Assembly: GCF_036320485.1 (NCBI RefSeq)
Contig: NZ_CP132911.1
Location: 992,001-1,056,000 of the forward strand
Length of the DNA stretch: 64,000 nucleotides
From: Dyella sp. A6
GTDB taxonomy: Bacteria; Pseudomonadota; Gammaproteobacteria; Xanthomonadales; Rhodanobacteraceae
Reading direction: 5' to 3'
Shown one piece after another: positions 10,201 to 15,115 of this stretch. The translations under genes and the position numbers were made by a program. Each line of letters opens with the position of its first letter. Positions within the stretch are counted from its first letter, which is position 1. Under the pieces are notes generated by a model that had not been told where the DNA came from, made no database searches, and saw only the letters and a program-made list of their open reading frames with translations.

Positions 10201-11952
10201 GTGAATAGTGTGCTGAGCGGTGGTTATAAGTTCAAGCAACTGCGGCATTTTGCGGCGAGTGGCCTGGTGTTGCTGGGGGTGGCCGGTTGCGCCTCGCTGC
10301 CACCGGTACGGCCGGCACCCGCGACACTGCCGGCGCAGCAGCCGCTGGCGCACCTTACCGTGGCGACGCCCGATGACGCCCATAACCTGACCGAGCAGCT
10401 CCTGGCTGGCGAGATGGCGCTGGCGCGCACCGATCTCAAGGCGGCTGCACAGGCCTACGGCAAGGCCATGCTGCTTACCAGCGACCCGAGCGTGGCCGAG
10501 CAGGCCGCGGCACTGGCTGTCGCCGTGCATGACGACGCCGGCGCGCGGCGCGCACTGGACCGCTGGCAGGCACTTGGTGCGAAGCCGGCGCCGCTGGCGC
10601 AGATGCGTGCCCAGCTGGCACTGGGCGAGGGGCGAACCGCCGAAGCGCAGCATCAGCTCGAGCTGCTTACCGCCAGCGGCGACAAGGATGCCTGGCGCGA
10701 TTTCGGCCGGGTGCTGCTCGGTAGCCGCGATCCCGCCGCCGCCGGCCGGCTGCTGGTGGCGCTGGCCACGCCGGCGCGTCTGCCGGCCGACCCCAAGGCA
10801 TGGCTGGCGATGAGCGAGATGGGCGACCAGTTGGGGCGGCATGCCTATGCGCGGCAGATCGCCGATGCGGCGGTGAAGCGCTTCCACACGGCGGAAACCT
10901 ATGCCTGGGCGGCACAGCTGGCGTTCAAGGCCGGCGATCGCAAGCAGGCCATGACGCTCTTCGGAAAGGCCCGCGCGAAGGACCCGAAGAACATTCGACT
11001 GCGCCTGGCCTACGCTAGCCTGCTGCAGCACAACGGCGATGCGGCACACGCGGCCCGCGTGCTCGAGGATGGTCCACAGGACACGGCTACCTATGCCATG
11101 CGTGCCGGACTGGCGGCGCGCGCGCATGACTCCGCCGCACTGGCGCGGGTCTACGACCAGCTCAGCCACGCACCGGACGAACAACGGATCCACGGGGCCT
11201 ACCTGCTCGGCCAGCTTGCCGAAGCGCTGGGACATCCGGATGCTGCCCTGAAATGGTATGACCAGGTGGCCGACAGCGATCCGCATGCATTCGACGCCGA
11301 CCTGCGCAGCGCCGTGCTGCTGCAGGCCCAGGGCAAGTCGGCGCAGGCGCACGACCGACTCGCGCAGATGCAGGTGGACTACCTCGACGACCCGCCCGAG
11401 CTGCGCCAGGCCTACGAGGTGGATGCCGACCTGTATATGCGCGAGCAGCGCTACACCCAGGCCATCGACGCCTTCAGCCATGCGCTGCAGGTGGTGCCGG
11501 ACGATCCGGGTCTGCTGTATGGACGCGGCCTGGCCTATGCCGAAGCGGGCAAGATCGATCAGGCGGTCGCCGACTTCCGCCACCTGCTGAAGATCAAACC
11601 GGGCGACGTGGACGCCAGCAACGCCCTGGGCTTCACCCTGGCCGATGCCGACCGCGACCTGCCCGAGGCGACAAGGCTGATCGAGGTGGCGCGTGCGGCC
11701 AAGCCGCATGATCCGTCGATCGCCGACTCGTGGGGCTGGCTGCAATATCGACTCGGCCATCTGGATCAGGCGGCCCAGGTGCTGCGTGGCGCGTGGCAGG
11801 CCAGCCACAACCCGGACATCGCGGCGCATCTTGGCGAAGTGCTGTGGAAGCAGGGACATCGCCAGCAGGCACACAAGCTGTTCGACGAGGCGCACAAGCT
11901 CGATCCGCACAACGCTACCCTGCAGAGCGCGCTGCGGCGGCTGCATCCATGA
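10201..11952 (+). CDS. TPR-repeat lipoprotein
   Basis: The 583-residue protein has a lipoprotein signal (LLGVAGC, modified Cys at about residue 31 counting from the GTG) followed by at least eight tetratricopeptide-like helical pairs to the C-terminus. It is therefore probably a membrane-anchored scaffold facing the periplasm. Most residues after the lipobox are Ala, Leu, Asp and Arg in the TPR pattern; no catalytic motif is seen. I chose the GTG at 10201 because upstream ATGs at 10193 and 10197 are out of frame and stop at once. A TATGAT box at 10161-10166 is a possible -10. The stop overlaps the lolB start (ATGA), so the pair is coupled, hinting at a link with lipoprotein sorting. Confidence 0.85.
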   Translation: MNSVLSGGYKFKQLRHFAASGLVLLGVAGCASLPPVRPAPATLPAQQPLAHLTVATPDDAHNLTEQLLAGEMALARTDLKAAAQAYGKAMLLTSDPSVAEQAAALAVAVHDDAGARRALDRWQALGAKPAPLAQMRAQLALGEGRTAEAQHQLELLTASGDKDAWRDFGRVLLGSRDPAAAGRLLVALATPARLPADPKAWLAMSEMGDQLGRHAYARQIADAAVKRFHTAETYAWAAQLAFKAGDRKQAMTLFGKARAKDPKNIRLRLAYASLLQHNGDAAHAARVLEDGPQDTATYAMRAGLAARAHDSAALARVYDQLSHAPDEQRIHGAYLLGQLAEALGHPDAALKWYDQVADSDPHAFDADLRSAVLLQAQGKSAQAHDRLAQMQVDYLDDPPELRQAYEVDADLYMREQRYTQAIDAFSHALQVVPDDPGLLYGRGLAYAEAGKIDQAVADFRHLLKIKPGDVDASNALGFTLADADRDLPEATRLIEVARAAKPHDPSIADSWGWLQYRLGHLDQAAQVLRGAWQASHNPDIAAHLGEVLWKQGHRQQAHKLFDEAHKLDPHNATLQSALRRLHP

Positions 11953-12563
11953 GGCGCGCATGGCGGTGGTCGATCGCGGCGCTGCCGCTGCTGCTGCTGG
12001 TCGCCTGTGCGCCGCGTCAGCTGGTGCGGCTGCCGGGCAATGCGGCCATGCTGGCGCAGCAGCAGGCGCGCGAAAAGCAGTTGGCGGCGGTGACCCACTG
12101 GACCTTGCGGGGGCGTCTTGGCGTATCCGACGGTCATCACGGCGGCAGCGGCAGCCTGACCTGGACCCAGGATGGCGACCGCTATGCCTTCGAGTTGCAG
12201 GGGCCGGCACTGAGCGGTGTCGATTTCCGCCTGGTCGGCGGTCCGGACGGTGCCACTCTCAATGGGGTGCGTGGCGGACCGCTGCACGGTCCCGACGCCG
12301 AGACCCTGATGCAGGCCGCGCTGGGCTGGACGGTGCCGTTGCGTGACCTGCGCGCGTGGGTGCTGGGTCTGCGCGCGGACAGTGGTCCGGCCAGCTTGCG
12401 CTTCGGCGACAACCATCTGCCCTCGCTGCTGCAGCAGGACGGCTGGACGGTGGACTACCGTGCCTGGGACAGCCAGCGTCAGCCGCCGCTGCCGACCACC
12501 ATTTTCGCGTCCAAGCCGCCATACAAGGTGCGCCTGGCGGTGGAAAGCTGGAGCATCCGCTAG
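11949..12563 (+). CDS. lolB: Outer-membrane lipoprotein insertion protein LolB
   Basis: This 204-residue lipoprotein has a signal ending LLLLVAC, with Cys at about residue 20. LolB sits in the outer membrane, takes lipoproteins from the periplasmic carrier LolA and inserts them in the inner leaflet. The half-barrel pattern WTLRGRLGVSDG, GGSGSLTWTQ, YAFELQGPALSG and the later hydrophobic strands fit the family, and the C-terminal FASKPPYKVRLAVESW matches known ends. It is translationally coupled to the TPR lipoprotein before it and lies 79 bases before the GNAT-IspE gene, keeping the usual lolB-ispE neighbourhood. Confidence 0.9.
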   Translation: MRRAWRWSIAALPLLLLVACAPRQLVRLPGNAAMLAQQQAREKQLAAVTHWTLRGRLGVSDGHHGGSGSLTWTQDGDRYAFELQGPALSGVDFRLVGGPDGATLNGVRGGPLHGPDAETLMQAALGWTVPLRDLRAWVLGLRADSGPASLRFGDNHLPSLLQQDGWTVDYRAWDSQRQPPLPTTIFASKPPYKVRLAVESWSIR

Positions 12564-12642
12564 ACTGCGCAGCCCGCCCTGGCCAATCGCCTTGGCCCTC
12601 TCTGTCGCGATGACGGACACCTTACGGACCGGTTCCCAGCGC

Positions 12643-14025
12643 ATGATCTGCACCATTGTTTCCGCCCGGCCCGATCAGCTCGATGCGCTGCGCGACATCG
12701 AGCTGGCGGCGCTGGAAATGTTCCGCGGCCACCCGGCCTGGCGCGCCTATGCGGCCTCCACGCCCAGCGATGCCGATGTGCTGGCCGATGCGATCGGTCG
12801 TGGACGCGTGTGGGTGGCGCTGGATGGTGCCGGTCACGAGATGGGCTACGTCGGCGTGGGGGTCGAGGATGGCGAGGCCACCATCGCCGAGATCGACGTG
12901 CGCCCCGAGTGCGGATGCCAGGGTGTCGGTGCCCGTCTGCTGGAACATGCCTGTGCCTGGGCGGCTGAGTCCGGCTATCCGGCGATCAATCTGGGCACCT
13001 TGTCGGATGTGGCCTGGAATGCCCCGTTCTATGCGCGGCACGGCTTCGAGGTGGTGCCGCCGCGGCAGTACACGCCGGCGTTGGCGGAGCACGACCGGCA
13101 CGACCGCGAGCGCGGTTTTCCGATGGATCTGCGGGTCTACATGCGGCGCCGACTGGGGCTGTCGCCGGAGGGCTGGACCCGCTGGCCGGCGCCGGCCAAG
13201 CTGAACCTGTTCCTGCGCATTACCGGTCGCCGCGCCGATGGCTACCATGAGCTGCAGACCGTGTTCCGCCTGCTCGATCGCGGCGACGAGCTGCGCCTGC
13301 GGGTGGGCGGCGACGGCCAGATCAGGCGCGTGACCGAAGTGCTCGGAGTTGCCGAGTCGGACGATTTGACCGTGCGTGCCGCGCGCCTGCTGCGCGAGCG
13401 GGCTGGCGTCACGGCCGGAGCCGAGATCGAGGTGGTCAAGCGCATCCCGATGGGCGGCGGCCTGGGTGGCGGCAGCTCGGACGCGGCCAGCGTGCTGGTC
13501 GGCCTCAACCAGCTGTGGCATGCCGGGCTGGACGAGGATGCGCTGGCGGCACTGGGTGCCGAACTGGGCGCCGACGTGCCGGTGTTCGTGCGCGGGCGCT
13601 CGGCCTGGGCCGAAGGTATCGGCGATCGGCTGCAGCCGATCGACCTGCCGCGGCGCTGGTATGCGGTGCTCGATCCACGCGAACACGTGCCGACCGCGGC
13701 GCTTTTTCAAGCGTCTGAATTGACACGAAATGCACCGGCAGCGACAATTTCGTCCTTTGCTTCTGGCGAAACGGCGGAAAACGTCTTCGAGCCAGTCGTG
13801 CGTGCGCGTCATCCCCGGGTGGCGGCTGCGCTGGACTGGCTTGGCGCTTTCGGCCGCCCACGGCTTTCCGGCAGCGGCGGTTGCGTGTTCCTGGAGTTCG
13901 CCTCGCGCGAGCGCGCGGAGGCGGTCGTCCGGCGCTGTCCGGTACGGTTCGATGCGTGGGTGGCTGCAGGCGTGGGGCTTTCCCCGTTGTACGACGCGCT
14001 TGCCAGGCATCGTGCGGCGGCCTGA
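12643..14025 (+). CDS. ispE: GNAT acetyltransferase fused in frame to IspE (CDP-ME kinase)
   Basis: One continuous frame of 460 residues holds two domains. Residues about 1-170 are a GNAT N-acetyltransferase: MICTIVSARPDQLDALRDIE start, acetyl-CoA loop RPECGCQGVGARLLEHA near 87-103, and FYARHGFEVV near 129-138. From about residue 178 it is a complete 4-diphosphocytidyl-2-C-methyl-D-erythritol kinase of the non-mevalonate isoprenoid pathway: PAPAKLNLFL with K186, the GHMP ATP loop PMGGGLGGGSSDAAS from 269, and GADVPVF with D311. The GNAT part ends RVYMRRRLG and IspE begins LSPEGWTRWP with practically no linker. There is no stop between them. Internal ATGs at 13123 and 13141 lack good ribosome sites, so a separate IspE product is uncertain. 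I chose 12643 because the GNAT fold starts there; 12610 is an alternative. Confidence 0.88.
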   Translation: MICTIVSARPDQLDALRDIELAALEMFRGHPAWRAYAASTPSDADVLADAIGRGRVWVALDGAGHEMGYVGVGVEDGEATIAEIDVRPECGCQGVGARLLEHACAWAAESGYPAINLGTLSDVAWNAPFYARHGFEVVPPRQYTPALAEHDRHDRERGFPMDLRVYMRRRLGLSPEGWTRWPAPAKLNLFLRITGRRADGYHELQTVFRLLDRGDELRLRVGGDGQIRRVTEVLGVAESDDLTVRAARLLRERAGVTAGAEIEVVKRIPMGGGLGGGSSDAASVLVGLNQLWHAGLDEDALAALGAELGADVPVFVRGRSAWAEGIGDRLQPIDLPRRWYAVLDPREHVPTAALFQASELTRNAPAATISSFASGETAENVFEPVVRARHPRVAAALDWLGAFGRPRLSGSGGCVFLEFASRERAEAVVRRCPVRFDAWVAAGVGLSPLYDALARHRAAA

Positions 14026-14050
14026 GCCGGAAGCGGAAATGCGTTCACAT

Positions 14051-14125
14051 TGGGGCGTCGCCAAGCGGTAAGGCACCGGGTTTTGATCCCGGCATTCGCA
14101 GGTTCGAATCCTGCCGCCCCAGCCA
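14051..14125 (+). tRNA. tRNA-Gln (anticodon TTG)
   Basis: A 75-base cloverleaf with encoded CCA. The acceptor stem TGGGGCG pairs with CGCCCCA, the anticodon arm is CCGGG-TTTTGAT-CCCGG with anticodon TTG, and the T arm GCAGG-TTCGAAT-CCTGC is canonical. It lies 25 bases after ispE and 33 bases before prs on the same strand, so it is probably processed from the ispE-prs transcript. Confidence 0.97.
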
Positions 14126-14158
14126 GTTCACTCCAAATCTGCTCCAGAGGAAGTCATT

Positions 14159-15115
14159 GTGGATACGTCCGCTCCGATGCTGTTCACCGGCAACGCCCAC
14201 CGCGCGCTGGCCGAGGACGTGGCCCAGCGGCTCGGCATCCCGCTGGGCAAGGCCTTGGTGGGCCGCTTCAGCGATGGCGAGGTGCAGATCGAGATCGAGG
14301 AGAACGTGCGCCGCCAGGAAGTCTTCGTGCTGCAGCCGACCGGCGCCCCTAGCGCGGAAAACCTGTTCGAGCTGCTGACCCTGGTGGATGCGCTCAAGCG
14401 CGCCTCGGCGACCAGCGTGACCGCGGTGATGCCGTATTTCGGCTACGCCCGGCAGGATCGTCGCCCGCGCTCGGCGCGTGTGCCGATCACCGCCAAGATG
14501 GTGGCAAGGATGGTCAGCACGGCAGGCGTGGACCGCGTGCTCACGGTCGACCTGCATGCCGACCAGATCCAGGGCTTCTTCGACATTCCGGTGGATAACG
14601 TCTATGCCTCGCCGCTGCTGCTGGCGGACATCTGGCGGCACTTCTCGCTGGACGACCTGATCGTGGTCAGTCCCGACGTCGGCGGCGTGGTGCGCGCGCG
14701 TGCCATCGCCAAGCGACTGGACGATGCCGACCTCGCGATCATCGACAAGCGCCGGCCGAAGGCCAACGTGGCGACGGTGATGAACATCATCGGCGACGTG
14801 GATGGCAAGACCTGCGTGATGGTGGACGACATCGTCGATACCGCCGGCACGCTGTGCGCGGCCGCCGCGGCACTGAAGGAGCGCGGTGCGCGCAAGGTCA
14901 TCGCCTACTGCGTGCATCCGGTGCTGTCGGGTGCGGCAATCAGCAATATCGAAGGCTCGCAGCTCGACCAGCTGGTGGTCACCAACACGCTGCCGCTGCG
15001 CCCCGAGGCACAGGCGTGCGCGAAGATCCGCCAGCTCTCGGTGGCTGAGCTGCTGGCCGAAACGATCCGCCGCATCGCCTTCGGCGAGTCGGTGAGCTCG
15101 CTGTACGTGGATTGA
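14159..15115 (+). CDS. prs: Ribose-phosphate pyrophosphokinase
   Basis: The 318-residue enzyme makes PRPP from ribose 5-phosphate and ATP, feeding nucleotide, histidine and tryptophan synthesis. The flexible-loop and ATP regions ([17 protein letters not shown]), the divalent-metal motif [17 protein letters not shown] and the PRPP-binding loop [13 protein letters not shown] are all present, and the length is normal. I start it at the GTG at 14159, preceded by AGAGGAAG; the next ATG, six codons on, would cut into the first strand. It sits in the widely conserved lolB-ispE-prs-rplY-pth-ychF block. Confidence 0.96.

Follow-up and report, generated by a model that had tools for sequence, protein, structure and literature searches.

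Why is IspE, an essential enzyme and antibacterial target, encoded in one frame with a GNAT acetyltransferase in Dyella sp. A6, and what does each half of the product do? The window, a stretch of 64,000 nucleotides, holds the gene between lolB and a tRNA-Gln gene followed by prs, with the following features (positions are those of the window).

11949..12563, + strand: lolB, upstream neighbour (PF03550, 131.5 bits)
12643..14025, + strand: fused GNAT-IspE coding sequence, 460 aa (open frame; one match across both halves in 136/233 genomes of family f1)
12643..13158, + strand: GNAT half, residues 1-172 (PF13508/PF00583; Foldseek match to PA2271, 9cr5, TMt 0.93)
12910..12933, + strand: acetyl-CoA pyrophosphate-loop region CGCQGVGA, residues 90-97 (alignment of 93 sequences)
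13177..14022, + strand: IspE half, residues 179-460 (TIGR00154, 255.2 bits; Foldseek match to 1oj4, TMt 0.95)
13198..13200, + strand: codon of K186 (alignment)
13453..13488, + strand: ATP-binding loop GGGLGGGSSDAA, residues 271-282 (alignment)
13573..13575, + strand: codon of D311 (alignment)
13720..13748, + strand: promoter-like site TTGACA-N17-GACAAT within ispE, candidate promoter for tRNA-Gln and prs
14051..14125, + strand: tRNA-Gln(TTG) (ARAGORN)
14159..15115, + strand: open frame, presumably prs (ribose-phosphate diphosphokinase), downstream neighbour; the tree relatives other than G068 carry it at the same place

Architecture of the fused protein

The frame runs for 460 stop-free codons to a TGA, and the two domains that the sequence-only reading had recognised in it, a GNAT domain and a complete IspE, both score above the Pfam and TIGR00154 cut-offs. 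In the 460-residue protein, Pfam assigns residues 53-137 to Acetyltransf_7 (48.9 bits, with 27 as the cut-off) and residues 242-318 and 377-432 to the N- and C-terminal GHMP kinase domains, and the NCBIfam ispE model covers residues 179-452 with 255.2 bits (curated cut-off, 138.7). The IspE motifs named in that reading are likewise seen in the alignment: K186 and D311, which we take to be the counterparts of the catalytic K10 and D141 of E. coli, and the loop at 271-282, which agrees with the GGGLGGGSS pattern, are all intact, and the CTG codon at 13159 does encode L173. In the GNAT half, the acetyl-CoA loop motif of the superfamily, (Q/R)xxGx(G/A), keeps its GxG part (G94 is invariant and G96 is conserved in at least 90% of the 93 aligned sequences), and its first position, variable among relatives, is G91 in the window protein instead of Q/R. 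This half scores below the RimI cut-off (TIGR01575, 35.5 versus 86.4 bits) and below the curated cut-offs of ArsN2 (23.7 versus 125 bits) and WecD (28 versus 195.1 bits).

An AlphaFold2 model of the fusion built from a 93-sequence alignment (mean pLDDT 93.2, pTM 0.91) ends the GNAT half with a strand at 164-170 and opens the IspE half with one at 179-196, leaving a linker of about 8 residues, and the high pTM suggests that the halves pack in a fixed arrangement, with room left for cross-talk. Foldseek aligned the IspE half with the E. coli and Klebsiella enzymes (1oj4 and 8ckh; TMt 0.93-0.95, 50-51% identity), with which it shares the whole TIGR00154 domain, the catalytic Lys/Asp and the GHMP loop, and the GNAT half with PA2271 of Pseudomonas aeruginosa over its whole length (9cr5; TMt 0.92-0.93, E 6e-19, 35% identity). 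However, the known IspE chains among the matches listed are single-domain proteins of ~268-318 residues, to which the window protein adds an N-terminal GNAT, and PA2271 is a free-standing chain of 174 aa. The single paper listed under the name PA2271, an asthma trial, is unrelated. The window gene is a genuine two-domain protein, one of the two possibilities that the sequence-only reading had raised, and neither half is unusual within its own known family (IspE, and GNATs of the PA2271 kind). The window genome has IspG and IspH and lacks HMG-CoA reductase (HMGR), and the IspE half is predicted to perform the essential kinase reaction of the MEP pathway there.

IspDF is a bifunctional MEP enzyme that combines two steps within one pathway; GNAT-IspE is also a fusion involving an MEP enzyme, but its GNAT does not seem to belong to that pathway. 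In the N-acetylglutamate synthase-kinase, the acetyltransferase is reportedly of GNAT-type fold and the kinase is said to belong to a family other than that of IspE. This bifunctional enzyme of Xanthomonas campestris, from a related order, likewise pairs acetyltransferase with kinase activity in a single polypeptide, but both activities serve one pathway (arginine), unlike those of GNAT-IspE (PMC1865377). Relative to the papers searched, the IspE-GNAT combination appears to be new, whereas its halves, acetyltransferase-kinase fusions and MEP-enzyme fusions were already known; the extracts of the matches listed contained neither an IspE-GNAT fusion, nor a function for PA2271, nor the promoter-like site, nor the Dyella pathway swap described below.

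Distribution and origin of the fusion

A whole-protein search of the window's family (f1) found a match in 214 of 233 genomes, and in 136 of the 233, as counted from the listed rows and representing 17 of 26 genera, one match extends over both halves. The other 78 matched genomes comprise G230, five with GNAT only, G031 with GNAT and an IspE fragment, and 71 with IspE only, this last number being a count by subtraction for genomes listed in part. In G230, two overlapping match pieces lie inside one frame of 528 codons (C2:650340-651770), probably a fused gene with an in-frame insertion within IspE. No match was found in 19 of the 233 genomes (14 of the unfused lineage g42, plus G012, G094, G208, G242 and G246), and within the 17 fused genera IspE matches were always accompanied by GNAT (G012 and G208 having no match whatever), from which the halves could be mutually dependent in MEP species. 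G208 (g19, a Rhodanobacter group; 99% complete, 90 contigs) has IspH, lacks HMGR and yields no IspE match, likely because of an assembly gap.

A protein database search with the GNAT half returned 245 proteins, and 119 of the best 120 carry both GNAT and GHMP kinase domains (452-491 aa), the single GNAT-only protein among them being P0089 (301 aa). The genus names in these best 120 of 245 are Rhodanobacter, Dyella, Frateuria and Fulvimonas, and the source names are mostly plain IspE, which hides a conserved second enzyme. A collection of named genomes, in which 79 loci were kept of 321 confirmed stretches, contains 69 family loci (L142-L210), 64 fused and five GNAT-only, together with 10 stand-alone GNATs from other taxa; it overlaps the family genomes, and all 14 named loci compared were identical in sequence to one of them. 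One of its loci (L147, the same as G138) lies on a contig labelled Candidatus Eremiobacteraeota and is of Dyella type with an intact ATP loop, and it is probably mis-binned. In a class-wide sample of 369 genomes, the GNAT half matched in seven: in the window genome, and in six others whose matching frames have 178-231 codons. Among these seven no fusion was found outside the family. In an order sample of 299 genomes, the frames that carry GNAT matches outside the family are 174-653 codons long; of the longer ones, those examined (L128 and L130) were judged by glmU context alone.

The ispE gene directly follows lolB, with no GNAT between them, in all 12 unfused relatives examined and in the single outgroup. 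In a LolB+Prs tree of 54 genomes (one outgroup, 12 unfused genomes and a choice of 41 from the ~142 of the fused lineage), a branch of support 99 parts the fused lineage from the unfused. Given this split and the adjacency of lolB and ispE in the unfused genomes, a single and old event of insertion and fusion is likely. The sequence-only reading had allowed for a recent loss of the stop/start junction or a base error in the window genome, and had asked how many genomes share the fusion. Its recurrence in the 136 family genomes and 64 of 69 named loci excludes a sequencing or assembly error as its source, and its wide spread in the family and confinement to one clade of the LolB+Prs tree dispose of a recent junction loss, so the chance that an error or a recent mutation joined two neighbouring genes is close to nil.

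In a GNAT tree, the fused GNATs group together (support 99) and adjoin a glmU-linked clade from sister family f2 (support 100), with a branch of 81 to the rest. These f2 proteins, such as those of Luteimonas aquatica and [Pseudomonas] boreopolis, form the nearest clade to the fused GNATs (~41-49% identity), but they are encoded by separate genes downstream of glmU in all 11 distinct loci examined (L089, L090, L127-L133, L135 and L214; L130 and L213 are one locus, counted once). The spacing is mostly ~30 bases or less, or the genes overlap, and two of the 11 loci have gaps of ~550 and ~830 bases; in the order sample, 19 f2 genomes have a GNAT match. Within the window's family, none of 15 glmU loci has a GNAT within ~1.5 kb, and G185, which lies outside the fused clade, carries a stand-alone GNAT of ~40% identity with no glmU nearby. 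A relocation of the GNAT from glmU to ispE is plausible from these arrangements, and we propose that, most likely once, a GNAT gene of the PA2271 type inserted between lolB and ispE and was then joined in frame to ispE. Two Bordetella GNATs (L211 and P0134) are nested in the f2 glmU-linked clade with support 97-100, and L211 has no glmU, a placement that suggests lateral transfer.

Fate of the two halves in Dyella

The genus-level Dyella group g18 comprises 16 genomes, all of which have HMGR, none of which has IspG, and one of which has IspH (G138, a MAG with 4% contamination). With HMGR present and IspG and mostly IspH absent, IspE should be expendable in this group. The GNAT is kept in 16/16 genomes and the full-length fused frame in 10/16; IspE is deleted in five, giving the order lolB-GNAT-tRNA-prs, and in G031 the frame ends after the GNAT and an IspE fragment alone follows. 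By sequence identity to these genomes, the IspE frame is kept in Dyella psychrodurans, acidiphila, flava, mobilis, dinghuensis and lipolytica, and it is gone in Dyella acidisoli, nitratireducens, monticola, choica and flagellata; the tree suggests two separate IspE deletions (support 83) and one truncation. In seven of the 10 full-length genes (G135, G128, G130, G137, G132, G124 and G126) IspE is decayed, with the ATP loop and the YHEL region altered (mildly in G135), whereas in G131, G136 and G138 it is near-normal (252.6-286.2 bits) despite the absence of IspG. A separate case is G005, a MAG from the window's own genus (g1), which has HMGR, lacks IspH and IspG, and carries an intact-looking GNAT; its IspE is decayed and, at 130.6 bits, misses the cut-off of 138.7. 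With IspE intact-looking, decaying, truncated or deleted beside a constant GNAT, the Dyella series catches a pathway swap in stages and allows the roles of the fusion halves to be asked about without mutants.

The GNAT half is under purifying selection throughout, with a maximum-likelihood omega of 0.04-0.14 across the seven groups tested (0.09-0.10 in the Dyella groups) and a pN/pS of 0.12 among the five IspE-deleted genomes. For IspE residues 180-355, omega is 0.06-0.12 in four MEP groups and early Dyella versus 0.27-0.29 in decayed Dyella, where neutrality is rejected by 47 and 106 lnL units; this estimate mixes in time before the decay and is compatible with later neutrality. The chance that drift would leave a decayed gene without a stop is, per gene, 0.12-0.18 when half of the differences are taken as neutral and 0.03-0.06 when every difference is, and the seven genes share a history. 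Because the GNAT is under purifying selection where IspE is decayed or deleted, it appears to function without need of IspE, and this pattern indicates a role of its own, independent of IspE, and speaks against MEP-pathway control as the principal role of the GNAT. The GNAT of Dyella could also have acquired a new role after the pathway swap.

The promoter-like site and competing readings of the fusion

A scan of positions 12400-14300 found the promoter-like site at 13720-13748 and no other, with 0.1 expected. Every one of the 54 fused genes contains GAATTGACAC; 53 of them (G036 differs) have the complete pattern TTGACA-17-NACAAT, which recurs in 68 of 69 named loci (all except L202) and 11/11 unfused family loci scanned, and a weaker form is found at the f2 locus. 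All five IspE-deleted genomes retain the site between the GNAT stop and tRNA-Gln, although no coding constraint is left there, and G031 retains it too; a promoter-like site within a coding gene has thus outlived the gene. The site would act as a promoter for tRNA-Gln and prs, and part of the 3' end of ispE may persist because it lies there. In decayed Dyella, pS of IspE residues 356-456 is 0.37 versus 0.66 for the GNAT, and low pN accompanies this low pS, so that constraint at the DNA level, such as the promoter-like site would impose, is a simpler account of the C-terminus than retention at the protein level, which we also considered. Residues 356-384 have low pS in MEP pairs as well. For residues 385-456, downstream of the site, pS is 0.42 in Dyella g18 and not low in MEP pairs, which could reflect a role as leader sequence or recombination involving the conserved prs side.

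The reading that we consider probable combines these observations: a two-domain protein of single origin, in which IspE is the MEP kinase in the window genome and the GNAT is predicted to be an active acyltransferase acting on a substrate of its own outside the MEP pathway, to which it would transfer acetyl groups. The fusion would chiefly tie expression and folding of the GNAT to an essential housekeeping gene, and the 3' third of ispE would double as carrier of the promoter-like site for tRNA-Gln/prs, as DNA kept where IspE is dispensable. The sequence-only reading had speculated instead on metabolic control; in that case the MEP pathway would be regulated through the GNAT half, either by its sensing of acetyl-CoA or by its acetylation of IspE (or of CDP-ME). 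The persistence of the join across 17 genera and the compact, confident two-domain model (pTM 0.91) would fit such control, but the GNAT is under strong selection in relatives without IspG and, in all but one, without IspH, where IspE is decayed or, in five genomes, deleted, and its f2 relatives stand alone beside glmU; we set this control aside as the main role on the Dyella g18 series, and regard regulation of the pathway as improbable. Slightly less probable still is that the fused frame exists on paper only, with translation restarting near the junction and free IspE as the working product. Most of 54 fused genes do have a Met 14-20 codons before WPAP, but the Met of RVYM/RVFM is a residue of the GNAT end motif that is kept in GNAT-only genes too, ribosome-site energies at it are mostly weak (a few reach -5.9 to -6.6), five of the 54 have no ATG in the 25 codons before WPAP, and G014 has no ATG, GTG or TTG within 31 codons; in some species an internal start could nonetheless yield IspE by itself.

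For the Dyella species that use the MVA pathway, a further and unlikely, though less remote, account is that the dead IspE half is a folded pseudokinase needed by the GNAT, which is now the main enzyme. All seven decayed genes stay open with in-frame indels only, neutrality is rejected at omega 0.27-0.29, and AlphaFold2 folds the D. acidiphila protein with a mean pLDDT of 88.6 and a pTM of 0.89. However, five genomes have no IspE half and the frame of G031 is broken after the GNAT; omega, as computed on this tree, also reflects the time before decay; retention of part of the 3' end is explained by the promoter-like site and by reduced synonymous divergence; genes sharing one history could each have stayed free of stops under neutrality, at the chance given above for half of the differences; and the D. 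acidiphila alignment includes intact homologues, with pLDDT of 62-70 in parts of the IspE half. The corresponding history, in which a lineage-specific GNAT captured an essential kinase as carrier and the kinase half became, after pathway replacement, a catalytically dead scaffold for the acetyltransferase and was then shed in some species, has a similarly small chance of being right; if true, it would offer a traceable stepwise origin of a pseudoenzyme.

Across the family, HMGR occurs in 44 of 233 genomes, in six genera. In the unfused lineage g42, nine of 11 genomes tested carry HMGR but neither IspE nor IspH, and G094 shows the same pattern; by gene content these are further MEP-to-MVA swaps with loss of IspE. 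Ten of the 44 belong to the Rhodanobacter group g19 and have a full-length fused match, suggesting that both isoprenoid pathways are present in one cell.
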